DNA from: an uncultured Candidatus Saccharibacteria bacterium
GTDB lineage: Bacteria; Patescibacteriota; Saccharimonadia; Saccharimonadales; Saccharimonadaceae
Assembly (NCBI GenBank): GCA_937902295.1
Contig: CALGUM010000068.1
Location: 1-12,546 of the forward strand
Direction of reading: 5' to 3'
Length of the DNA: 12,546 nucleotides
In this document: positions 1,467 through 9,968 of the stretch, piece after piece
How the letters are laid out: each line of letters begins with the position of its first letter
How positions within the stretch are numbered: position 1 is the first letter of the stretch
Notes under the pieces: model-generated
The model's database searches: none
Told to the model about the DNA's origin: nothing
The model's input: only the letters and a program-made list of their open reading frames with translations
Translations under genes and position numbers: made by a program

Positions 1467-1937
1467 CTAGCCTTCAAATTCCACTGTTCTACCAGGACTC
1501 ACATTATATCGGCTGATGGAACCTTCGGACAATTGCAAGACGTAGCGAGATTTCCCCGAAGGACGGTACACAGTGTCTTGTGACGGCTGTGCACTCCTCG
1601 CTACAAATACTACTTTCTTTTCCGCGGTAATCCATACGATATCAATGGGAAATTGCAATCCCTCTGTCCTTACTGGCCACACATCATCGTGAGGATGCTT
1701 TACGAGTAGCGCTCGGTCTTCCGGCAACCTCGACACACCGCGCAGACCCGCCTCTCGACGCTGGTCAGTATCAGCTACGTCCGCATAAAAGGTCTTAGCT
1801 CCGATGTGCACCTGAGTTGATGCCCCCGTATGCGGCAAGAAAAAATACACCACAAATGCGACAAGCAGTCCGACAGCCCCAAATATGAGTATCCATACAA
1901 ATACGTGCTCAAAACGGCTTCTAGATCCAGCTTCCAT
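1467..1937 (-). CDS. DUF192 family protein, membrane-anchored
   Basis: One hydrophobic helix at about residues 12-33 anchors a DUF192 domain (about 45-155) outside the membrane. Family features are visible: DVADTDQRREAGLRGVSRLPED (53-74, the segment where the family has the ER-GL-R-L-D pattern), then LQFPIDIVWI (94-103), the counterpart of the PLDIVFID core, and SGKSRYVLQLSEGS (127-140), matching the ARYVLELPAG motif. DUF192 has no firmly assigned biochemical role. It lies 32 bases after rimK. There is no Shine-Dalgarno sequence; instead TATACT ends six bases before the ATG, so the gene may have its own leaderless transcript as well as readthrough from the ligase cluster. Confidence 0.85.
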   Translation of the reverse strand: MEAGSRSRFEHVFVWILIFGAVGLLVAFVVYFFLPHTGASTQVHIGAKTFYADVADTDQRREAGLRGVSRLPEDRALLVKHPHDDVWPVRTEGLQFPIDIVWITAEKKVVFVARSAQPSQDTVYRPSGKSRYVLQLSEGSISRYNVSPGRTVEFEG

Positions 1938-1969: not shown

Positions 1970-2881
1970 CTATGCGCCAACTTTGTCTTTTTTGGGGCGG
2001 CGCTTGGCATTGCGTTCGACGTAGTCTATTACTGCCCCAGCTACGTCGCGTTTGGTCACCTTTTCTATCCCGAATCCAGGACTCGCATTCACTTCGAGAA
2101 TCAGTGGTCCGCGGTCGCTGCGCATCATGTCGACACCAGCTACATTCAAGCCCATAGCCTTGGCTGCTTTGATTGCCATTTTGCGCTCTTCCTCGGTTAG
2201 TTTTACCACTGTACCTTCACCACCTTTGTGGAGATTAGAGCGAAAATCATCATCAAGGCTTTGACGCTTCATACTGGCGACTACGCGGCCACCAACTACC
2301 ATGGCACGGATGTCTGTGCCAGCAGATTCTTTGATAAACTCTTGAAGTAAGATGTTTGTTCCGTCCTCGTTACTCAGATAAAAAGCCTGTAGTACAGATT
2401 TAGCTGCTTTCTTGGTTTCGGCGAGCACTACCCCGTTACCATGTGTGCCTCGTGCCAACTTAATAATCACTGGTGTACCGCCAAGCTTTTCTAGTAGGTC
2501 GTCTATGTCAGCAGAATTACGAGACACCACCGTTTTTGGTATTCCTACTCCCGCTTTTGCGAGTAACTGCATGCTTCGCAGCTTATCCCTCGAACGCGCA
2601 ATCGCGATCGAACTGGAGATACTGTACACTCCTTGCATTTCAAGCTGTCGCACGATAGCAGTGCCGTATCGTGTCATGTTACTTGCGATGCGCGGGATAA
2701 TTGCATCAAACCCAGCCAAATCATCACCACGGTAACTCACAGTCGGATTACTCCGCTCAATTGAGGCGTAGCATTCTTTATATTTAATTACCTTCACCTC
2801 GTGACCGCGCGCTTTTGCTACCTCTTTGAGGCGTTTTGTCGAATAATTACCGGGTCCATTGGATAGGATTGCAATTTTCAT
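1970..2881 (-). CDS. rimK: RimK, ribosomal protein S6-L-glutamate ligase family (ATP-grasp)
   Basis: At 303 residues this matches E. coli RimK (300) throughout. RimK adds glutamate to the C-terminus of ribosomal protein S6 using ATP. The pre-ATP-grasp domain opens with MKIAILSNGPGNYSTKRLKE. FDAIIPRI (58-65) and IARSRDKLRSMQLLAKAG (94-111) are near-identical to RimK. The ATP-grasp fold shows VIIKLARGTHGNGVVLAET (138-156), LLQEFIKE (178-185), DFRSNLHKGGEG (212-223), AGVDMM (248-253) and LEVNASPG (262-269). Asp251, Glu263 and Asn265 are the expected metal ligands. Its ATG overlaps the protease stop codon (ATGA), and GAGGAG lies five bases upstream, so the two genes are translationally coupled. 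The true acceptor may be S6 or another protein; the family also includes non-S6 ligases. Confidence 0.93.
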   Translation of the reverse strand: MKIAILSNGPGNYSTKRLKEVAKARGHEVKVIKYKECYASIERSNPTVSYRGDDLAGFDAIIPRIASNMTRYGTAIVRQLEMQGVYSISSSIAIARSRDKLRSMQLLAKAGVGIPKTVVSRNSADIDDLLEKLGGTPVIIKLARGTHGNGVVLAETKKAAKSVLQAFYLSNEDGTNILLQEFIKESAGTDIRAMVVGGRVVASMKRQSLDDDFRSNLHKGGEGTVVKLTEEERKMAIKAAKAMGLNVAGVDMMRSDRGPLILEVNASPGFGIEKVTKRDVAGAVIDYVERNAKRRPKKDKVGA

Positions 2882-3345
2882 ACCTGCTCCTCAACTCTAT
2901 ATTTTCGTAGTTCTTGGGATCGACGGTCTTCTTCGGTGCGCAGCGGGTTACCTTTTGCTACGTCAACGATAAATTTACCCTTCAGCGTCGATCTACCCAC
3001 TAACACTGGGTACACCTGTGTGCTTCTGTCAGCGAGAGTAAAAGTCGCTAAAATACGTCGTCCCTTTATTATAGTCGGTAGCTTTACCTTGTAGCGCACT
3101 TGCTGTTGCCCCATCGAACTTGCAACACCAACCCGTTCATAACGAGAAAATAGTACTTCATGTTTATAAATCTCATGGTCTGACGAAGCCAAACGCACAC
3201 GTAGTCCCTCTGCTGTTTCTAAAATGTCAGTTGCCCAAATCGAGGACGTCTTAGCGCCAGTATCGATACGAGCGTACAGTGTGCTATTGCCAAGAGTAGG
3301 AAAACACACTTTCTCAGCACGACCTATTATCACCTTCTCTTTCAC
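2878..3345 (-). CDS. Retropepsin-like aspartic protease, RimB / 'ATP-dependent zinc protease' family
   Basis: This 155-residue protein belongs to the family annotated in databases as ATP-dependent zinc protease (PF05618), whose fold and motif are those of a retropepsin-like aspartic protease. The catalytic motif ARIDTGAKTSSI spans residues 25-36, with Asp28-Thr29-Gly30. The second conserved half is seen as VYPVLVGRSTLKGKFIVDVA (111-130). The single DTG implies a working homodimer, as in retropepsins. Related proteins are encoded next to rimK in other bacteria (RimB in pseudomonads) and are thought to act with RimK. The start is GTG at 3345, overlapping the upstream stop by four bases (GTGA), with GGAG eight bases upstream. 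The rimK start overlaps its own stop. No signal peptide is visible, so it probably acts in the cytoplasm. Confidence 0.87.
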   Translation of the reverse strand: MKEKVIIGRAEKVCFPTLGNSTLYARIDTGAKTSSIWATDILETAEGLRVRLASSDHEIYKHEVLFSRYERVGVASSMGQQQVRYKVKLPTIIKGRRILATFTLADRSTQVYPVLVGRSTLKGKFIVDVAKGNPLRTEEDRRSQELRKYRVEEQV

Positions 3346-4256
3346 TGTACCAGCTCCACTTCAAGTAACGACTGTATCATTTGCGCATAGGAGGTAGATT
3401 TCTCAGCCGTAAACGTTCCTGAAGAAATCTGAGGAGCATTATTTATTTCTAGAAAATAGAAATCATTATTGCGAGCATCAAACATTACATCAACTCCCGC
3501 AACTTGTAGCTTTGCAACATGAGCGGCCTTAAGACTTAGATCTATAATTTTAGAGTCTACCTCACTAATAGACACCAATTCTGCATCCCCGCCTTGTGAG
3601 GTATTGTTTAGATGCGATGATCCATCTCCAGTGCGGCGAATTATCATCGATACGTGTTTATTCATAATTAATATACGCAAATCGCTGTCATTTGGAATAA
3701 ACTCTTGTAAGACAAACTGCACGTCTGGATACTGACGAACTATTGCCCGAATCTCATCTGGAGTAGACACTACAAAATTAAGACGTCCTTTACTGCCGTT
3801 GCTATCTTTAAATACCGCTTTGTCGCCCAGTTCTGGGAGCCGTCGAACAAGTTCGTCGACCGGGCCATACATCGTCCATGGCCACTGCGTAATGCCATTA
3901 CACCATAATAGAAACTCGTTACTGAGCTTACTGTCTAATAGCAATCTGTCTAAATACGTATCAGTGTAACGCACATCAAACCGTTCACAGTATCGGGCTA
4001 TAGCCTGAGCTTCAACCCAACATTTGCCCGTGTGTCGCATAATCACAAGGTCAAAATCTCGAACATCAAATTTTTTTTCAGGATGATAAATACCGATCTT
4101 GTCTTTGGCTACTTCAAAAAAAAGCTCAGTAATCTCACAATTTTCTATTTGAATGTCCTCATTACCCAGAAGTTGGCGCATCTTATCTGCAAAAAGATCA
4201 GCTTTTTGAACTGATCCGGGGCTCTTCGCCCTTGCTATAAGCAGTACTTTTTTCAT
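3342..4256 (-). CDS. RimK-like ATP-grasp ligase of unknown specificity
   Basis: This 304-residue ATP-grasp protein has an N-terminal half (about 1-90) that is not closely RimK-like. The ATP-grasp core is visible: AVFKDSNGSKGRLNFVV (147-163) as the ATP-binding loop with Lys150, VLQEFIPNDSDLRILI (182-197), IIRRTGDGSSHLNNTSQGG (205-223) where RimK has its R-SN-GG segment, AGVDVMFD (253-260), and YFLEINNAPQ (267-276) with Glu270 and Asn272 as metal ligands. It should ligate a carboxylate to an amine through an acyl-phosphate; the substrate is unknown. It begins 18 bases after the upstream ligase gene and overlaps the protease gene by four bases. Hand counts of five 60-base lines give about 36% GC, against about 51% in three lines of rimK, which hints at a different origin. 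A promoter lies directly upstream and there is no Shine-Dalgarno sequence. Confidence 0.85.
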   Translation of the reverse strand: MKKVLLIARAKSPGSVQKADLFADKMRQLLGNEDIQIENCEITELFFEVAKDKIGIYHPEKKFDVRDFDLVIMRHTGKCWVEAQAIARYCERFDVRYTDTYLDRLLLDSKLSNEFLLWCNGITQWPWTMYGPVDELVRRLPELGDKAVFKDSNGSKGRLNFVVSTPDEIRAIVRQYPDVQFVLQEFIPNDSDLRILIMNKHVSMIIRRTGDGSSHLNNTSQGGDAELVSISEVDSKIIDLSLKAAHVAKLQVAGVDVMFDARNNDFYFLEINNAPQISSGTFTAEKSTSYAQMIQSLLEVELVQ

Positions 4257-4263
4257 CTATACA

Positions 4264-4292
4264 ACTATACCATTTTATACACTTATATTCAA
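4264..4292 (-). promoter_or_regulatory. Internal promoter for the second ATP-grasp gene
   Basis: TTGAAT (4292-4287) and TATAGT (4269-4264) are 17 bases apart, with TGG in front giving an extended -10. The -10 ends seven bases before the ATG, predicting a leaderless transcript. The -35 lies in the last codons of the upstream ligase gene. The second ligase, the protease and rimK could therefore be made without the first ligase. Confidence 0.55.
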
Positions 4293-5255
4293 GTGTCTGT
4301 GTGTTGCGTTGACTATCTTATCGGCAACCCAACTAGCGTCGGCATTACGAGCTAATGAATACATTTTGAGCGAAGGTGAAGTGTTGCATTCATTGAACCA
4401 ATATCCCCCCTGTGCCGCTGGCGCAGTATGGTCCACAATAAACATATCGATGGCCGATAGTCCGGCACCCAATGTTGCAGCAAACGTCGTCGCAACTTGC
4501 ATATAAGAATCGTCAACCTCATCTGCCAGCTCATAGGCTGATGCACCTTGAGAGACCATTGTAGTTGTCGAGAGCAGGCGCACCTCATCTTTATTAAGCA
4601 CATGGTCGCTTCTAACACTTGCCCCCATTAGCTCGTCAGTCCATTGTGGATAGTCAGCACCCCTTGCGCCCGAAGAACGACGTAGCGTATTCTCACGCTC
4701 CACAAGTTGACTAATTGTGCTCGTGCCATCACCTTGCACCTGCGGCCTTTCTCTTCGAAGCACGGATACTATCTCACCTTCGAGAATCGTAAACCGATAT
4801 TCTTCCCCTCGCACTTGCTCTTGAATAATAGCGGTTGGTGAGAACTTATAAGCATCTTCTAGTGCATCGGTAAGTGCCTCATTCGTATCCACCTCGAGCG
4901 TTACCCCACGGGACTTGTAACTATCAAGAGGCTTAATGATAACCTCGGAGTATTGACTCATAAATAATCTTATTTGATCTATATCGGTACCTCGATTCAC
5001 ATACATTGTATGTGGTATGTGAATCCCCAACCTATTAGCAAGTTCATAAGATAGTTGTTTGTTGTCTGCAATCTGATGAACGTAATGATTATTCATAGGG
5101 TATGCCATTTTGCTACCGCTCATCCAAACACGCCCAGAAGGAGACGTGATACGAATCATTAACTGATCTTTTACAGTCGTCTCCTCGATAATATGACCTA
5201 ACGAGGATAAAGCAGCATAAAGACCACCGCGCTGACTCAACTCAAATATATCCAT
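4275..5255 (-). CDS. ATP-grasp ligase resembling the C-terminal domain of cyanophycin synthetase or bifunctional glutathione synthetase
   Basis: The 326 residues form a stand-alone ATP-grasp enzyme. Visible elements are ADNKQLSYELANRLGIHIPHT (63-83), the usual N-terminal subdomain; VIIKPLDSYKSRGVTLEV (105-122), corresponding to the KPLDG-GRGV loop of CphA/GshAB but poor in glycine; IIQEQVRGEEYRFTIL (143-158); a loop PQVQGDGTSTISQLV (171-185) typical of CphA-like enzymes; GLSAIDMFI (265-273); and WFNECNTSPSL (286-296), with Glu289 and Asn291 as metal ligands. Such enzymes couple amino acids or peptides, as in cyanophycin, glutathione and related compounds. There is no CphA Mur-ligase half and no GshA half in the window. 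It is the first gene of the operon, with AGG five bases before the ATG; an in-frame TAA just upstream rules out an earlier start. The substrate is unknown. Confidence 0.83.
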   Translation of the reverse strand: MDIFELSQRGGLYAALSSLGHIIEETTVKDQLMIRITSPSGRVWMSGSKMAYPMNNHYVHQIADNKQLSYELANRLGIHIPHTMYVNRGTDIDQIRLFMSQYSEVIIKPLDSYKSRGVTLEVDTNEALTDALEDAYKFSPTAIIQEQVRGEEYRFTILEGEIVSVLRRERPQVQGDGTSTISQLVERENTLRRSSGARGADYPQWTDELMGASVRSDHVLNKDEVRLLSTTTMVSQGASAYELADEVDDSYMQVATTFAATLGAGLSAIDMFIVDHTAPAAQGGYWFNECNTSPSLKMYSLARNADASWVADKIVNATHRHLNISV

Positions 5256-5404: not shown

Positions 5405-5433
5405 ATACTACCATTTATAGAGAAAAATGTCAG
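5405..5433 (-). promoter_or_regulatory. Promoter of the ATP-grasp/protease operon
   Basis: CTGACA (5433-5428) and TAGTAT (5410-5405) are separated by exactly 17 bases in an AT-rich gap, giving a start near 5398. The same TAGTAT -10 is used before the VirB6-like gene. No other good candidate was seen between the terminators at 5471-5555 and the first ligase start. Confidence 0.55.
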
Positions 5434-5470
5434 CCAAGACCACTTTGGCATTAACACATGTAGCAAATAA

Positions 5471-5497
5471 TAAAACCTTTCAAATCTCGAAAGGCTA
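5471..5497 (-). terminator. Second hairpin after the 124-residue protein gene, likely terminator
   Basis: On the minus strand CCTTTC and GAAAGG (5494-5489 and 5481-5476) pair around a seven-base loop, with a G-T and an A-T pair extending the stem. TTTTATTATTT follows. The U-rich tail makes this the better terminator of the two hairpins downstream of the gene at 5937-5563. Confidence 0.6.
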
Positions 5498-5562: not shown

Positions 5563-5937
5563 TCAGTGGTGATTATCACCCGGCTGTTTCTGCACGATTT
5601 CATCGTACGGCGCATTGCAGAGTGACTCCGTGCAATTAGTCTCCGGAGTGAGCTCACGCCCGACGTCTGCGCGTCTTACTCCTGCATCGTGCACCAGCCA
5701 CAAGCGTGCAAAGAACCCGGCATTCATAATGATAGCTGTGACTACTATAATCACAGGTACCAAAATGACAAGTGTCCGCATGCTTATGGCCTGTAGTCCG
5801 TGTAGAATAAAGACACACGCCACCAACGCGACAGCAATGAGATACATAATCATCGCATGTCCGCCGTCTTTGATGCGCTGATCAACATCCACAATTGACA
5901 TTGCCTTTTCCTGACCATTTTCCTTCTCGCTACTCAT
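5563..5937 (-). CDS. Small two-helix membrane protein of unknown function
   Basis: I do not recognise this 124-residue protein. It has a charged N-terminus, two membrane helices (about residues 27-47 and 54-74), then a polar tail with two cysteines (Cys102, Cys107) that ends in NHH. Basic residues after the second helix (LVHDAGVRRADVGR, 81-94) suggest that both ends face the cytoplasm. GGAGGTGG lies immediately upstream with good spacing, and a perfect consensus promoter drives it. Two hairpins follow, so it is a single-gene transcription unit and is probably well expressed. It sits just downstream of the VirB6-like gene, but nothing in its sequence ties it to secretion. Confidence 0.8.
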   Translation of the reverse strand: MSSEKENGQEKAMSIVDVDQRIKDGGHAMIMYLIAVALVACVFILHGLQAISMRTLVILVPVIIVVTAIIMNAGFFARLWLVHDAGVRRADVGRELTPETNCTESLCNAPYDEIVQKQPGDNHH

Positions 5938-6071: not shown

Positions 6072-8726
6072 CTATTTTGTTTCGAAGAGGCCCTCTATCT
6101 TCTCTAAAATATCAAGAGACCCTTGCGATAAACTGCCTGACAAGTTTTCGTTTCCAAGTGTGGTTTTTGCCATTGAGCTAAGCCGTTGTACATTCTCGTG
6201 GAACCTCGTTGCAGTATCGTCATCCAGGTCGCCAGTATTCATATTATTACGCATAACATTATAGACATCTTTTAATGCTTCTGTGTCGTTAGTTGCGAAA
6301 AATTCCTGCTTAAACTTACCGCCCGCAATAGCAGTTCGTATCACGTCATTGTACTGTTCTGGGCTCGCAACACCGCCAGTAGTTACAGTATCGATACTTC
6401 GACCCCCCATAAATCCTGCTTTGCCGACCATCTTTGTAGCCACCCCTTGAACAATTGTAGTAAGATACGGCTCGTACTCTGCCTGTCCAGACTTGACAAC
6501 AATTTCACGCATATCCTTGTAGTTACCTTTTTTCTCAAAGATACTTTCTATGGCTGCATCTATTGTATATTCATCGTCAGATTTGAAAGTGAAATTTAAT
6601 CCATCTTTCGACACTGCAACATCTGATCGCATATTTGCCAGATCTTTCACCTGCTCACCCGAAAGTTTGAAGTGATCCATCATCTCTTTCATAGCTGCAG
6701 CACTTTTTCCAAAGTCAGCACGCATCTCTTGCACAGCACGCGCTGCTGCTTGTGCCTTACCTTTATCCCCAGTAATACCAGCTGCAGCTACCTGTAGCGC
6801 ACTTGCATGCGTGCCCTTCACCATATCCTCGGAATATTCAAGTTTTTCCTGCTCTTTGGCGAATTGTGATGCAGTTGCTAGCGCATGGCTTTTATGTGAC
6901 AGCTGGTTCATTCGCTGAGTAATACCTTCAAGCGGCGTCCCAGCTACACCATGGTGCTCTGCACCTTTCTTTGACTTAAGTTCTTCTAGAAGCGTGTCCG
7001 CTTCCGCCTTGTTCACATTAAACTGCATATCAGCAACATTCAATTTCATCGCAGCAATCTTAACCTTAGGGTCCGTACGCTTGAGTTCTTCATACGCTGC
7101 GTCATTAAGCTTGTCGACAGTAGCCAGGCGATCATTTTCATACTTTTGATCATTAGATAACTGTCTACCAATCTTACCGCTATTAAACCGACGGCTCGAC
7201 ATAGTTTCATACCGTTTCTTTAATGCTTCATCTCGGCGTTTACTCTCCGCCATTCGTCGCGCGAGACCACTACCAAATGCACCTTCTGCCACACGGCGAT
7301 CTTTTGATAGACCGGCCTTGTTGCTACTCCAATTTTTCGCTCGATCGCCAAGACCCTTGGCTGGATTATTAACCATACCGGCGATGCGACCAAGTATGCT
7401 GCCGCTAAACTTAATCAAAAATGGGGTGATAATGAGCGGTGCTACTTGGATAAACATCGCGAACAAAAGTGTCAACACGCCAGTTGCATTTTGCGCTATG
7501 AGGTGAGCAGCAAGTTGCGAGCCGCCAAACAGCAGAGAGAACATGGGGTACATTAGTAGCATTGTCATGAAGAGTGAGCGCCATCGCTCAAAATATTTTT
7601 GCGTGCTAGGCAAAATGAATGCAGTGAATGCGAGCGGTGAAAGTACAATGAGTACGGTGATAAGTGCGTGGCGTGCAGCAAATACTACGAGCACTACGAG
7701 TATGGCAGTGACCGCACCAACAAGCATTGGCATCAACAGGAAAAGTGCTGCCGTTCCATACGTCCCCAATACAGCCAATCCTGCCAGTCCGGCGCCTATA
7801 GTACCGCCCGATAGTATGTATGTTGTGACACTTGACCAGCTCCACGTGTTCGGATCTGTCACGGTATCGTCATTAGAGACAAGCCGACCACGGATATCAT
7901 TAAATATATCCTGAAGGTTAGCTCCTAGAATATTGGAGATGTCTACTGCGAGCGCACAGATGTAATACGAAGCATTTATTAAAATTGCTGCCACAATAAT
8001 GCGAGGTAAGATAGTGCGAATGTCGTGTTGCTTGACCCCACGATCTGTTATATAGGAGTATATGATAATCAAAAAACCAATCACGAACCCAACGTTCGCA
8101 ATTGCGAGTGCGAATGACCACGCCTGATATAAACCTGAGTTTGTATCTGAAATCAACGGTGCAACATGCAGTAGGCTTTTGAATACATTGAAGAGCTTAT
8201 CCATCCCCTCTGCCATAAGATTCATGACAGGGCAAATAACATATCCAATACCACCGACCACACATGACGTAACCTCTGGCTCTCCATTTGCTTCGTACGT
8301 AGACTGGTCGAGTGACACCTCTTGCTGGCCACCGACCCTTGTGTACGTTTCGCCAGCTGTACCTTTGTCGACTACAGAAAATACTGCATGGCGAGCAGTT
8401 GTTGCGTTTTGCAACTCTACATCTGGTGCAAAGTATAAAATCTGGTGGACTGGCGGCAGCTCTGTGTCGTCGATATGAACAAAGTGTTCAGACCCTTCGG
8501 GGATGCCCGTATGATCAGAAAGCGCAGGTGACACAGGGCCACTACGCAAATAACTTCGCTCATCGTAGACGATCTTGCCTGATTCCCACGCTGCGTCAGC
8601 GGCATGGGTGGTCGTAGAAAAGATAGTTGTGGACAGCAAGACCGCTAGGATAACGACCAAAAAATGTAGGGCATATCGCAATAGCGACACACCCCCCGTG
8701 TGCGGTCTAGTAGAATTAACCCACAT
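6072..8726 (-). CDS. VirB6/TrbL-like type IV secretion membrane protein with a long soluble tail
   Basis: This 884-residue protein begins with a signal-like hydrophobic segment (about 16-38) and a possible AxA-type cleavage site near 40-44. An extracellular domain of about 150 residues follows, with Cys155 and Cys165. Membrane helices lie at about 200-226, 238-265, 302-330, 333-352, 354-374, 386-405 and 415-440. The cytoplasmic region (about 445-884) is basic at first and then charged, alanine-rich and mostly helical. This arrangement fits VirB6/TrbL components of type IV secretion channels, which are common in Saccharibacteria; the assignment rests on architecture and not on a motif. No VirB4 or VirD4 gene is in the window. 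The start at 8726 is preceded by a promoter leaving almost no leader. A GTG at 8690 is an alternative start, but the G-run abuts it too closely for a Shine-Dalgarno role. Confidence 0.72.
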   Translation of the reverse strand: MWVNSTRPHTGGVSLLRYALHFLVVILAVLLSTTIFSTTTHAADAAWESGKIVYDERSYLRSGPVSPALSDHTGIPEGSEHFVHIDDTELPPVHQILYFAPDVELQNATTARHAVFSVVDKGTAGETYTRVGGQQEVSLDQSTYEANGEPEVTSCVVGGIGYVICPVMNLMAEGMDKLFNVFKSLLHVAPLISDTNSGLYQAWSFALAIANVGFVIGFLIIIYSYITDRGVKQHDIRTILPRIIVAAILINASYYICALAVDISNILGANLQDIFNDIRGRLVSNDDTVTDPNTWSWSSVTTYILSGGTIGAGLAGLAVLGTYGTAALFLLMPMLVGAVTAILVVLVVFAARHALITVLIVLSPLAFTAFILPSTQKYFERWRSLFMTMLLMYPMFSLLFGGSQLAAHLIAQNATGVLTLLFAMFIQVAPLIITPFLIKFSGSILGRIAGMVNNPAKGLGDRAKNWSSNKAGLSKDRRVAEGAFGSGLARRMAESKRRDEALKKRYETMSSRRFNSGKIGRQLSNDQKYENDRLATVDKLNDAAYEELKRTDPKVKIAAMKLNVADMQFNVNKAEADTLLEELKSKKGAEHHGVAGTPLEGITQRMNQLSHKSHALATASQFAKEQEKLEYSEDMVKGTHASALQVAAAGITGDKGKAQAAARAVQEMRADFGKSAAAMKEMMDHFKLSGEQVKDLANMRSDVAVSKDGLNFTFKSDDEYTIDAAIESIFEKKGNYKDMREIVVKSGQAEYEPYLTTIVQGVATKMVGKAGFMGGRSIDTVTTGGVASPEQYNDVIRTAIAGGKFKQEFFATNDTEALKDVYNVMRNNMNTGDLDDDTATRFHENVQRLSSMAKTTLGNENLSGSLSQGSLDILEKIEGLFETK

Positions 8727-8830: not shown

Positions 8831-9931
8831 CTAAGAAAATATCGAGCGTTTTTTACTACTCTTCAGCTCTTTGAGAAGTTCTTTTTGCTTCTTGGAAAGT
8901 TTTGTAGGCGTGTCTACGACAATACTCACAATATGCGCGCCCCGCCCGCCATGCTGCAATGGTACGCCATGCTCATTAAGCTTAAAATCTGTACCGCTCT
9001 GTGTGCCCGCAGGAATCTTCATACGTACCACACCATCTACCGTTGTTACGTCGATTTCAGTGCCAAGTGCCGCGTCAACCATGTCAACATGCTCTTCACT
9101 TAGTATGAGGTCACCCTCTCGAGTAAACTGTTTGTGAGCCTTAACCCGCACGTGCACATAGAGGTCGCCTCGTGCGCCACCAGCAATGGCTTCGCCGCGT
9201 TCACGAAGACGAATTGTGACACCATCGTCGATACCTGCTGGAACTTTAATCTTAAGATCCTGCGTACGACGCTCAGTTCCTCGGCCACGACATACAGAAC
9301 AAATCTTCTCTGGAATTTGGCCACGCCCTTCACACGTTTGACATACTACCGCTTGTTGGATTTGACCAAACATCGTATTCATAACTCGGGGAATCTGGCC
9401 CGAACCTTTACAGGTCGCACAGGTTTTCATACCATGGCCGGGCTCTGCACGCTCACCGTGACAATGCGAACATTCATCTTGCATATCAAGCGACAAGGTT
9501 TTCTCGACACCAAATATCGCTTCTTCGAAATCAAGCGTGATACGAGTCTCTACGTCGTTACCGCGCTGTGTGCGCTGACCACCGCCCGAGGCACCTCCGA
9601 AGAACTGTCCAAAAATATCACCCAGGCCTCCATCGCCAAAGTCAAAGTGCATTCCTTGGCCGCCAAAGCCTTCAAATGGGTTGCCCCCACCACTATACCC
9701 GCCACCCGACGCACCGCCAACACCCGCATGACCAAATTGGTCATAACGCTGACGTTTCTGTTGATCTTTGAGTACTTCGTACGCTTCGTTCACTTCCTTG
9801 AACTTTTCTTCGCTTCCCCCTTCTTTATCGGGGTGATGCTTAACAGCAGCCTTACGAAAGGCTTTTTTTATTTCATCGGCACTTGCTTCTTTGCCGACAC
9901 CAAGTACTTCATAATAATCACGTTTGCTCAT
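8831..9931 (-). CDS. dnaJ: Chaperone protein DnaJ (Hsp40)
   Basis: DnaJ delivers unfolded proteins to DnaK and stimulates its ATPase. From the ATG at 9931 the protein has 366 residues, normal for the family. The J domain (about 4-67) has the HPD triad at 33-35. A Gly/Phe-rich linker spans about 68-120. Four zinc-binding repeats follow: CSHCHGER (154-161), CATCKGSG (171-178), CQTCEGRG (197-204) and CSVCRGRG (211-218). The last glycine of the first repeat is arginine. The C-terminal substrate-binding domains run to 366. An ATG ten codons upstream (9961) lies inside the CIRCE operator and would place MSASFCILVV before the usual SKRDYYEVLG start, so I reject it. The promoter implies a leaderless mRNA, and control by the heat-shock repressor HrcA is expected. 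No dnaK, grpE or hrcA gene is in the window. Confidence 0.97.
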   Translation of the reverse strand: MSKRDYYEVLGVGKEASADEIKKAFRKAAVKHHPDKEGGSEEKFKEVNEAYEVLKDQQKRQRYDQFGHAGVGGASGGGYSGGGNPFEGFGGQGMHFDFGDGGLGDIFGQFFGGASGGGQRTQRGNDVETRITLDFEEAIFGVEKTLSLDMQDECSHCHGERAEPGHGMKTCATCKGSGQIPRVMNTMFGQIQQAVVCQTCEGRGQIPEKICSVCRGRGTERRTQDLKIKVPAGIDDGVTIRLRERGEAIAGGARGDLYVHVRVKAHKQFTREGDLILSEEHVDMVDAALGTEIDVTTVDGVVRMKIPAGTQSGTDFKLNEHGVPLQHGGRGAHIVSIVVDTPTKLSKKQKELLKELKSSKKRSIFS

Positions 9932-9938
9932 TACTACC

Positions 9939-9968
9939 AGTATACAAAAACTAGCACTCAAATGTAAA
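9939..9968 (-). promoter_or_regulatory. Promoter of dnaJ
   Basis: TTTACA (9968-9963) and TATACT (9944-9939) are 18 bases apart. The -10 ends seven bases before the ATG at 9931, so transcription should begin at or next to the start codon. The -35 lies in the spacer of CIRCE and one operator arm lies between the two boxes, so bound HrcA would block the promoter. Confidence 0.7.

Follow-up and report, generated by a model that had tools for sequence, protein, structure and literature searches.

The window, by which we mean the whole 12,546-nucleotide stretch of DNA from an uncultured Candidatus Saccharibacteria bacterium that was analysed, carries four adjacent genes on the minus strand. These encode a stand-alone CphA/GshAB-type ATP-grasp ligase of 326 aa (g1, 4275-5255), a divergent RimK-like ATP-grasp ligase of 304 aa (g2, 3342-4256), a RimB-like retropepsin of 155 aa with a GTG start (g3, 2878-3345), and RimK, the ribosomal protein S6--L-glutamate ligase, of 303 aa (g4, 1970-2881). 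The original prediction had described this arrangement as a four-gene operon, and its coordinates, minus-strand orientation and family calls were all confirmed, as were on the sequence the two predicted 4-nt stop/start overlaps, GTGA at 3342-3345 between g2 and g3 and ATGA at 2878-2881 between g3 and g4. The junctions in g1-g2-g3-g4 order are 18, -4 and -4 nt, the first being a gap. The Glu-x-Asn motif was likewise found to be retained in all three ligases (E289-C-N291 in g1, E270-I-N272 in g2 and E263-V-N265 in g4), and g1 and g2 are predicted from homology to be active ligases. A promoter-like site with an extended -10 (9/12) lies 5′ of g1 at 5405-5433 on the minus strand, close to terminator-like hairpins at 5474-5496 and 5433-5449; all of these are consensus matches only, and as 15 promoter-like sites were observed compared to 9.3 expected, the support for the site is weak. 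A DUF192 gene, which often flanks the island downstream, follows 32 nt 3′ of RimK (1467-1937, minus strand), and DnaJ, the usual upstream flank, is located at 8831-9961 on the same strand.

The g4 protein passes the RimK equivalog NF007764 with 351.6 bits against a cut-off of 331 and matches P. aeruginosa RimK (PDB 7qyr) with an E value of 2.7e-100. Among the seven residues of the P. aeruginosa enzyme named in PMC10092738 as contacting poly-glutamate, five are kept in g4 in the alignment to 7qyr (S7, S14, R64, R192 and N265), and the remaining two, R8 and S68, are replaced by Asn. RimK is under similarly strong constraint as DnaJ, with a median pairwise identity of 69% compared to 70%. The window RimK is 90% identical to the RimKs of loci L002, L102 and L135, whose DnaJ proteins are 70-78% identical to that of the window (for L002 over 125 residues only). 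Recent horizontal spread of RimK was rejected as explanation of the 90% identity, as fourfold sites agree only to 26-36% and are thus saturated; strong constraint fits better. We also considered the C-terminus of S6 as proof of the substrate. An EE terminus was read for S6 in 28 of 57 genomes with RimK compared to 4 of 28 without (Fisher p 0.002, before phylogenetic correction), G004 and G020 being counted as RimK-negative with no RimK match at E<=1e-40; a contig end truncates the island of G004, and absence of RimK is uncertain in any RimK-negative genome whose assembly is incomplete. Phylogenetic pairing gives the raw association no support, but with three supported independent pairs it decides neither way; S6 does not end in EE in 29 of the 57 RimK-positive genomes. 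The S6 tail was not taken as proof of the substrate.

The g3 protein has a PF05618 domain (E 6.9e-15) with the DTG active-site motif at residue 28, and its best PDB match is 9g59 (E 4.5e-6). Since it scores 55.4 bits against the RimB equivalog NF052261, below the cut-off of 200, we refer to it as RimB-like and not as RimB. A retropepsin is present in 78 of the 117 sampled genomes, and in all but one of them (77/78) it is no farther than 2.5 kb from RimK. Separate retropepsin-RimK pairs on the same strand overlap by exactly 4 nt in 28 of 74 cases, and the two proteins are fused in 2 of the 78 loci; one further locus (1/78) carries a g1-like-retropepsin fusion. On the RimK tree the retropepsin changes only three times, a stability which is partly due to selection, because loci L080-L152 were chosen for holding a retropepsin. 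Retropepsin and RimK are the conserved core of the island.

For g2, the RimK ATP-grasp domain PF08443 was detected with an E value of 3.9e-16. An identity as LysX-type ligase was rejected, as g2 reaches 47 bits with the LysX model TIGR02144, far under its cut-off of 275.6, which sets it apart from the LysX/ArgX amino-group-carrier ligases; the structural kinship of LysX/ArgX with RimK does not settle the question. Of the 24 carriers of g2 (>100 bits) among the 117 genomes, 23 have it at most 4.5 kb away from RimK, and it is fused to the retropepsin in 10 of 78 loci, the ligase being N-terminal in the aligned examples. A viral origin was also discarded, a single-protein query having found no g2 relative among viral contigs.

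Among NCBIfam models, g1 best matches cyanophycin synthetase in its ATP-grasp part (TIGR02068, E 9.3e-37), scoring 126.5 bits where the family cut-off is 850 and covering model positions 208-471 of 862. The protein is closest to the ATP-grasp of CphA and shares the fold of that part of CphA1, but it is not a full cyanophycin synthetase with ATP-grasp and Mur-ligase halves in one protein, and a Mur-ligase half is missing from the window. In a scan of 392 genomes with a threshold of >=230 bits, g1 was found in 14 genomes and in all 14 inside a RimK island (L002, L108, L131, L137, L144, L154 and L250-L257). In L131 it occurs together with a CphA-type Mur-ligase half, and in L144 the gene next to it falls into the Mur-ligase cluster of the L131 protein. 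Regions with g1-like proteins of 101-143 bits contain RimK in only 4 of 12 cases (L263, L264, L266 and L269). With 14/14 g1 carriers and 23/24 g2 carriers by RimK, the linkage of the four genes is not a matter of chance. The gene order recurs in relatives, as the original prediction required: two of the 14 g1 genomes show exactly the order g1-g2-retropepsin-RimK (L002 in G002, L256 in G217) and one shows it with g2 and retropepsin fused (L257 in G396). Neither of the extra ligases reached the cut-off of any curated model for a family from an unrelated pathway. As the islands of the remaining 11 genomes hold other gene sets, we rejected a fixed machine of three ligases as general rule.

The position just upstream of retropepsin-RimK represents a variable slot. 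It contains at least one extra ligase in 41 of 78 genomes and at least two in 15, and none of the modelled accessories was found in 32 of the 78 retropepsin genomes; DnaJ is located upstream within seven genes in 53 of 78 loci. Ligase or peptidase profiles were matched by 79 of 151 slot genes, compared to 5 among 298 genes on the downstream side of RimK and 0 among 142 on the far side of DnaJ. This control relies in part on profiles derived from slot genes, so that flank genes of unmodelled ATP-grasp families would escape it; the PF08014, g1 and g2 linkage counts are free of this bias. Accessory genes turn over frequently on the RimK tree, with 24 changes for 45 carriers of g2, 25 for 42 of the MATCAP-like metallopeptidase and 12 for 15 of g1, and close RimKs are mostly paired with different accessory sets (493 RimK pairs, all of which had passed a shared-word prefilter). 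L153 and L158, duplicates of L016 and L020, were excluded from the tree and from the motif count, and L052-L054 were excluded as they had no anchor. In L020 and L268, a g2, a g1-like and a LAL-type ligase are situated behind DnaJ and RimK is absent from the region, the genome of L020 being G020, which gave no RimK match at E<=1e-40; L259 and L262 resemble them in holding slot ligases without RimK. A glycosyltransferase and a 312-aa protein were also found in slots. Comparing the profiles of slot unknowns with those of MATCAP, g1, g2, RimK and retropepsin identified some as ATP-grasps and revealed one missed ATP-grasp-retropepsin fusion (L093), but provided no explanation for the 312-aa gene U6, for U26 or for genes of 437, 441 and 453 aa.

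A MATCAP/TMCP-like metallopeptidase occupies the slot in 26 of 78 genomes and is not found in the window itself; the profile was widened across four rounds, and seven rows of ~600-676 aa, six of which count towards these 26, are of doubtful membership and perhaps a product of drift. L088, the only doubtful row that was scanned, had no Pfam match. PF08014 exceeded the Pfam cut-off in 31 of 117 genomes, and 20 of 33 carriers had it no more than 7.5 kb from RimK, where an arithmetic estimate with a binomial tail (15-kb target, 0.9-Mb genome) gives about 0.5 expected co-locations. In the other 13 carriers it was unlinked, that is on another contig, farther off, or in a genome where RimK was not found. 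The H, E, H ligand columns and a third Glu are kept in all 41 aligned MATCAP-like rows, with an exact EEG in 24 and a zinc motif that reads HExxxH in 25, HExxH in 15 and neither of the two in one; several of those proteins of the in-house set that were scanned singly against PF08014 stayed below its cut-off. Human TMCP1, which has the same motif set, trims the C-terminus of alpha-tubulin (PMC10499314). Both the slot variation between species and the frequent metallopeptidase lie beyond what the original prediction had considered.

We tentatively propose, with a probability of about 0.45, that the operon is a tail-editing module in which RimK adds tails, accessory ligases extend or cap them, and the retropepsin and carboxypeptidases trim them. 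By analogy to the Pseudomonas work, RimK would make poly-glutamate tails and the retropepsin would act together with it and cut poly-glutamate; RimB is reported to cut poly-glutamate, to remove glutamate from S6 and to stimulate RimK (PMC11957791). The g2 and g1 ligases might act on what RimK produces, or share its acceptor, and attach further kinds of residue in the form of branches, caps or a second block, where both the residue and the site of action are guesses. In related species the slot is filled by other ligases, in one tested case the Mur-ligase half of cyanophycin synthetase, and/or by a MATCAP/TMCP-type metallocarboxypeptidase, which would trim the tail from its end. The g2-retropepsin and retropepsin-RimK fusions tie these parts to one another. 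The original prediction of a system that builds and trims a tag or peptide fits best in this respect, given RimK/RimB chemistry, fusions and linkage, whereas its division of the three ligases into fixed roles of initiation and extension is unlikely to be general, as the four-gene order is one of many slot combinations.

Among the closest known systems is RimABK of Pseudomonas, which also has RimK and a DTG retropepsin of RimB type in one operon, the protease here being expected to cut poly-glutamate and to modulate RimK in the same manner; GGDEF genes in the vicinity of some Saccharibacteria islands recall the connection of Pseudomonas RimK to c-di-GMP. In contrast to RimABK, no EAL-domain match was obtained among the window proteins scanned, and the island comprises two further ATP-grasp ligases for which relatives swap in MATCAP-like peptidases or other ligases, which points to a richer tail-editing system than that of Pseudomonas. 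RimB-RimK hybrid proteins, the existence of which is described in PMC11957791, correspond to the two single-protein retropepsin-RimK fusions, but most fusions here join g2 and retropepsin, in reverse order and with a different ligase. The pairing of ATP-grasp ligases with a metallocarboxypeptidase of the tubulin-tail-trimming family in relatives resembles tubulin-tail editing, where the TTLL enzymes are ATP-grasp ligases building glutamate tails (PMC4431377), with the differences that the system is bacterial and that the MATCAP gene is missing from the window. In the one open-access literature collection searched, no report of the arrangement was found.

Synthesis of a free branched oligopeptide or polymer, cyanophycin-like and perhaps with a poly-glutamate backbone, that serves in storage, in osmotic balance or in the cell envelope would make S6 a side issue and the peptidases recycling enzymes. 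We consider this somewhat unlikely. It would account for the kinship of g1 to the CphA ATP-grasp, for the Mur-ligase cluster partners in L131 and L144, and for the slots that keep g2, g1-like and LAL-type ligases without RimK. Moreover, a Moranbacteria relative (L028) has an RloABC-like set with extra ligases, in which g1-like and g2-like ligases are joined to 7TM_transglut, an ATPgrasp_ST-retropepsin fusion, a Mur ligase and a penicillin-binding protein; since the g2 relative lies there in an Rlo-type cluster near the penicillin-binding protein, its context suggests an envelope polymer rather than S6. RloABC of P. aeruginosa likewise combines a retropepsin with an ATP-grasp ligase, and RloA cleaves poly-glutamate and acts in osmotic stress (PMC12239564). 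However, RloA is described in that source as secreted and as having the 7TM/transglutaminase partner RloB, neither of which is seen in the window: the family match of g3 begins at residue 6, leaving no space for the signal peptide of an Rlo protease, no RloB-type gene was present among the window proteins scanned, and PF14402 was absent from the ten scanned with Pfam. The window g1 also has no Mur-ligase partner, and a RimK constraint equal to that of DnaJ fits a fixed partner, for example the ribosome.

That genes merely tend to insert between DnaJ and the retropepsin, at a hotspot whose extra ligases serve unrelated pathways (D-Ala-D-Ala-like, glutathione-like or lysine-like) appears quite improbable. 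The high accessory turnover, the glycosyltransferase and 312-aa genes and the ligases persisting without RimK would be expected of such a site, but ligases and peptidases make up about half of the slot and are almost absent from the flanks, albeit by profiles partly derived from slot genes, fusions and 4-nt overlaps bind g2 to the retropepsin, and the unbiased scans place g1 and g2 with RimK. A graspetide-type RiPP, in which g1 and/or g2 would modify a ribosomal precursor matured by the protease, is less probable still. Such clusters are reported in CPR bacteria, including two ATP-grasp branches with peptidases in which the precursor is not visible (PMC8939145); RimK and RimB-like retropepsins, however, are not graspetide enzymes. 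Furthermore, when the 500 nt 5′ of g1 were compared between the window and nine relatives, on one strand and with uncalibrated pairwise scores, the only small ORFs in common were pieces or alternative frames of neighbouring genes.

A bold and rather doubtful extension of the tail-editing module is a bacterial "tail code", in which a near-constant RimK would write poly-glutamate on an unvarying acceptor, for example ribosomal S6, swappable ATP-grasp and Mur-type ligases would add other residues, and MATCAP-type carboxypeptidases and a fast-evolving retropepsin would erase them; the tails would then differ chemically between species, as with TTLL and MATCAP on tubulin. In Pseudomonas, the known switch for poly-glutamylation of S6 comprises two or three genes, and Saccharibacteria are tiny bacteria with very small genomes that are thought to live on other bacteria. 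If a RimK core is combined with exchangeable ligases and tubulin-type carboxypeptidases in many Saccharibacteria, tail chemistry would be broader than glutamate, and S6 or free poly-glutamate of these species is predicted to carry non-glutamate residues. MATCAP-like enzymes beside ATP-grasp ligases would gain an evolutionary foothold outside the eukaryotes, and bacteria with very small genomes living on other bacteria would possess a regulated tail chemistry.

Judged from its nearest relatives, the window belongs to Saccharibacteria. All features mapped in it lie on the reverse strand. Gene g1 (4275-5255) encodes a stand-alone ATP-grasp ligase of the CphA/GshAB type, g2 (3342-4256) a divergent RimK-like ATP-grasp with 25% identity to g4 across 223 positions, g3 (2878-3345) a RimB-like retropepsin with a DTG motif and a score under the cut-off of the RimB model, and g4 (1970-2881) is RimK by the curated family model. 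The gene identities of the original prediction agree with family models and the DTG motif. Its stop/start overlaps were read in the sequence as 4 nt each at g2-g3 and g3-g4, the gap between g1 and g2 being 18 nt, and the Glu-x-Asn motif that it had noted is kept in all three ligases (g1, g2 and g4). Certain Lys, Arg, Asp and Glu positions are additionally invariant within the g1 and the g2 families. A confident AF2 model of g2 suggests equal likeness to LysX, ArgX and RimK, which were tied. By alignment, five of the seven residues contacting poly-Glu in P. aeruginosa RimK, as reported in PMC10092738, are present in g4.

Upstream of g1 follow a 124-aa membrane ORF (5563-5937), for which no family above cut-off and no match in the searched loci was found, a weakly TrbL/VirB6-like protein (6072-8726) and DnaJ (8831-9961). 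A weak promoter-like site is located at 5405-5433, close to terminator-like hairpins. On the other side, a DUF192 gene (1467-1937) begins 32 nt after RimK, followed by a 161-aa membrane protein (970-1455), tRNA-Lys (834-910) and, at the window end, an edge open reading frame which matches genes at the same position in relatives and which, judging from its sequence, may be ComEC.

Conservation of the core was evaluated in 117 genomes drawn evenly across the class. Of these, 91 have RimK and 78 the retropepsin; the distance between the two is no more than 2.5 kb in 77 of the 78, and in the remaining genome (G076) they are on different contigs. Among 74 loci with separate retropepsin and RimK genes on the same strand, 28 show a 4-nt overlap and 68 a gap of at most 30 nt. 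Of the 117 genomes, 24 carry g2 (>100 bits). In 23 of these, g2 and RimK are no more than 4.5 kb apart; the remaining one (G056) gave no RimK match. With a threshold of at least 230 bits, g1 was found in 14 of 392 genomes (loci L002, L108, L131, L137, L144, L154 and L250-L257), always within the RimK island and in 13 cases together with the retropepsin. The four-gene arrangement noted in the original prediction recurs in part: the exact order g1-g2-retropepsin-RimK is seen in L002 and L256, and L257 carries g1, a g2-retropepsin fusion and RimK, but the other 11 of the 14 g1 genomes differ. The window RimK (1970-2881) shares 90% protein identity with RimK of L002, L102 and L135, with fourfold sites saturated, and is more conserved than DnaJ at these loci.

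Between DnaJ and the retropepsin lies a variable slot. In the islands of the 78 retropepsin genomes, MATCAP-like proteins occur in 26 (six of the doubtful 600-aa type), g2 in 19, g1-like ligases in 10, g1 in five, ATP-grasp_4/L-amino-acid-ligase-like proteins (LAL) in nine, other ATP-grasps in eight and Mur ligases in four. Of these islands, 41 hold one extra ligase or more and 15 hold at least two; 32 are without any modelled accessory. In 10 islands g2 is fused to the retropepsin and in two the retropepsin is fused to RimK, fusions that would predict physical contact of g2 with the retropepsin and RimK. Accessory profiles, some of which were built from slot genes, matched 79 of 151 slot genes, five of 298 downstream genes and none of 142 beyond DnaJ. 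A gene of ~312 aa on the opposite strand (cluster U6), mostly between g2 and the retropepsin, was observed in 10 loci (L008-L011, L021, L023, L092 and others); the two members scanned (L009, L010) gave no Pfam family above cut-off.

The single accessory that occurs most often in the slot is related to PF08014/TIGR02421, with H, E, H and the third Glu kept in all 41 aligned MATCAP-like rows; an example of an island MATCAP-like protein is encoded at 8444-9793 of L108. Human proteins of this family trim the C-terminal tails of tubulin (PMC10499314). Five islands (L016, L030, L032, L155, L157) contain RimK, g2 and a MATCAP-like gene without a retropepsin, and a retropepsin search of three of their genomes (G016, G054, G094) found none. 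It looks as if one eraser, the MATCAP-like peptidase, could stand in for the other, the retropepsin. At L250, which is otherwise without MATCAP, a fragment located ~215 nt upstream of g1 is similar to the C-terminal part of the MATCAP-like gene found at L108 and L251, and is perhaps a relic of MATCAP-like gene loss in the slot.

Weaker g1-like ligases (12 regions, matches of about 110-141 bits) are less tied to the RimK island than g1. RimK is present in four regions (L263, L264, L266, L269), in three the ligase is fused to a retropepsin and RimK is missing (L258, L260, L261), and five have neither RimK nor retropepsin (L259, L262, L265, L267, L268). The g2 gene is found among the slot genes of L020, L262 and L268 with no RimK in the region. 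DnaJ-side slots with g2, g1-like or LAL ligases in regions lacking both RimK and retropepsin were observed at L020 (7983-11341), L259, L262 and L268, and the L020 genome gave no RimK match at E ≤ 1e-40. Since such slots hold g2 or g1-like ligases but no RimK, these ligases can persist after the loss of RimK or get by in its absence.

In PMC11957791, Pseudomonas RimB is described as removing Glu from S6, cutting poly-Glu and stimulating RimK, and RimB-RimK hybrid proteins are reported to exist. In the simplest reading, g2 and g1 would act on the product of RimK, extending, branching or capping it. S6 proteins ending in Glu-Glu were found in 28 of 57 genomes with RimK versus four of 28 without, a difference that was not upheld by phylogenetic pairing (three supported pairs). 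A serious though somewhat less probable alternative is that the ligases make a free branched polymer. The resemblance of g1 to CphA and the existence of some slots without RimK are in line with such a product, as are a matching Mur-ligase half beside g1 at L131 (and, by cluster membership, at L144) and the similar ligases that L028 of Moranbacteria carries next to a penicillin-binding protein and genes of the type of the P. aeruginosa RloABC operon. This Rlo-like cluster (4821-13694) comprises 7TM_transglut, an ATPgrasp_ST-retropepsin fusion, three further ATP-grasps, a Mur ligase and the penicillin-binding protein.

The RimB-RimK pair is already known, as the original prediction had stated, and ATP-grasp/peptidase operons were reportedly surveyed by Iyer in 2009. 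The two extra ligases beside the pair had been called unfamiliar. No report of an exchangeable slot with extra ligases and MATCAP-like peptidases beside RimB-RimK was found in the open-access literature searched. In Photobacterium (L035, 7626-12727), two RimK-like ATP-grasps are followed by an M14 zinc carboxypeptidase (Pfam and M14 checked for L035 only), and a similar ATP-grasp pair occurs in 15 more Photobacterium, Veronia and Shewanella loci (L036-L038, L040-L051). In 14 loci (L008, L009, L018, L020, L021, L025, L092, L096, L112, L118, L140, L144, L155 and L158, which duplicates L020), a GGDEF-type gene (cluster U3) is located on the opposite strand, upstream of the island anchor and at most six genes away from it. 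The GGDEF-like motif is present in 12 of them, and Pfam agreed in both loci tested. These genes near Saccharibacteria islands echo the c-di-GMP control of Pseudomonas RimK.

Across the 111 rows of a RimK tree, 24 state changes were counted for 45 carriers of g2, 25 for 42 of MATCAP, 12 for 15 of g1 and 11 for 12 of LAL, and 56 of 493 RimK pairs with at least 80% identity have the same accessory set. RimK and DnaJ have median pairwise identities of 69% and 70%, whereas the retropepsin reaches 36% (1485 pairs, 55 loci). Because RimK is about as conserved as DnaJ while the retropepsin has diverged and the accessories change frequently, the island thus combines a constant writer, RimK, with a fast-changing protease and changing helpers.
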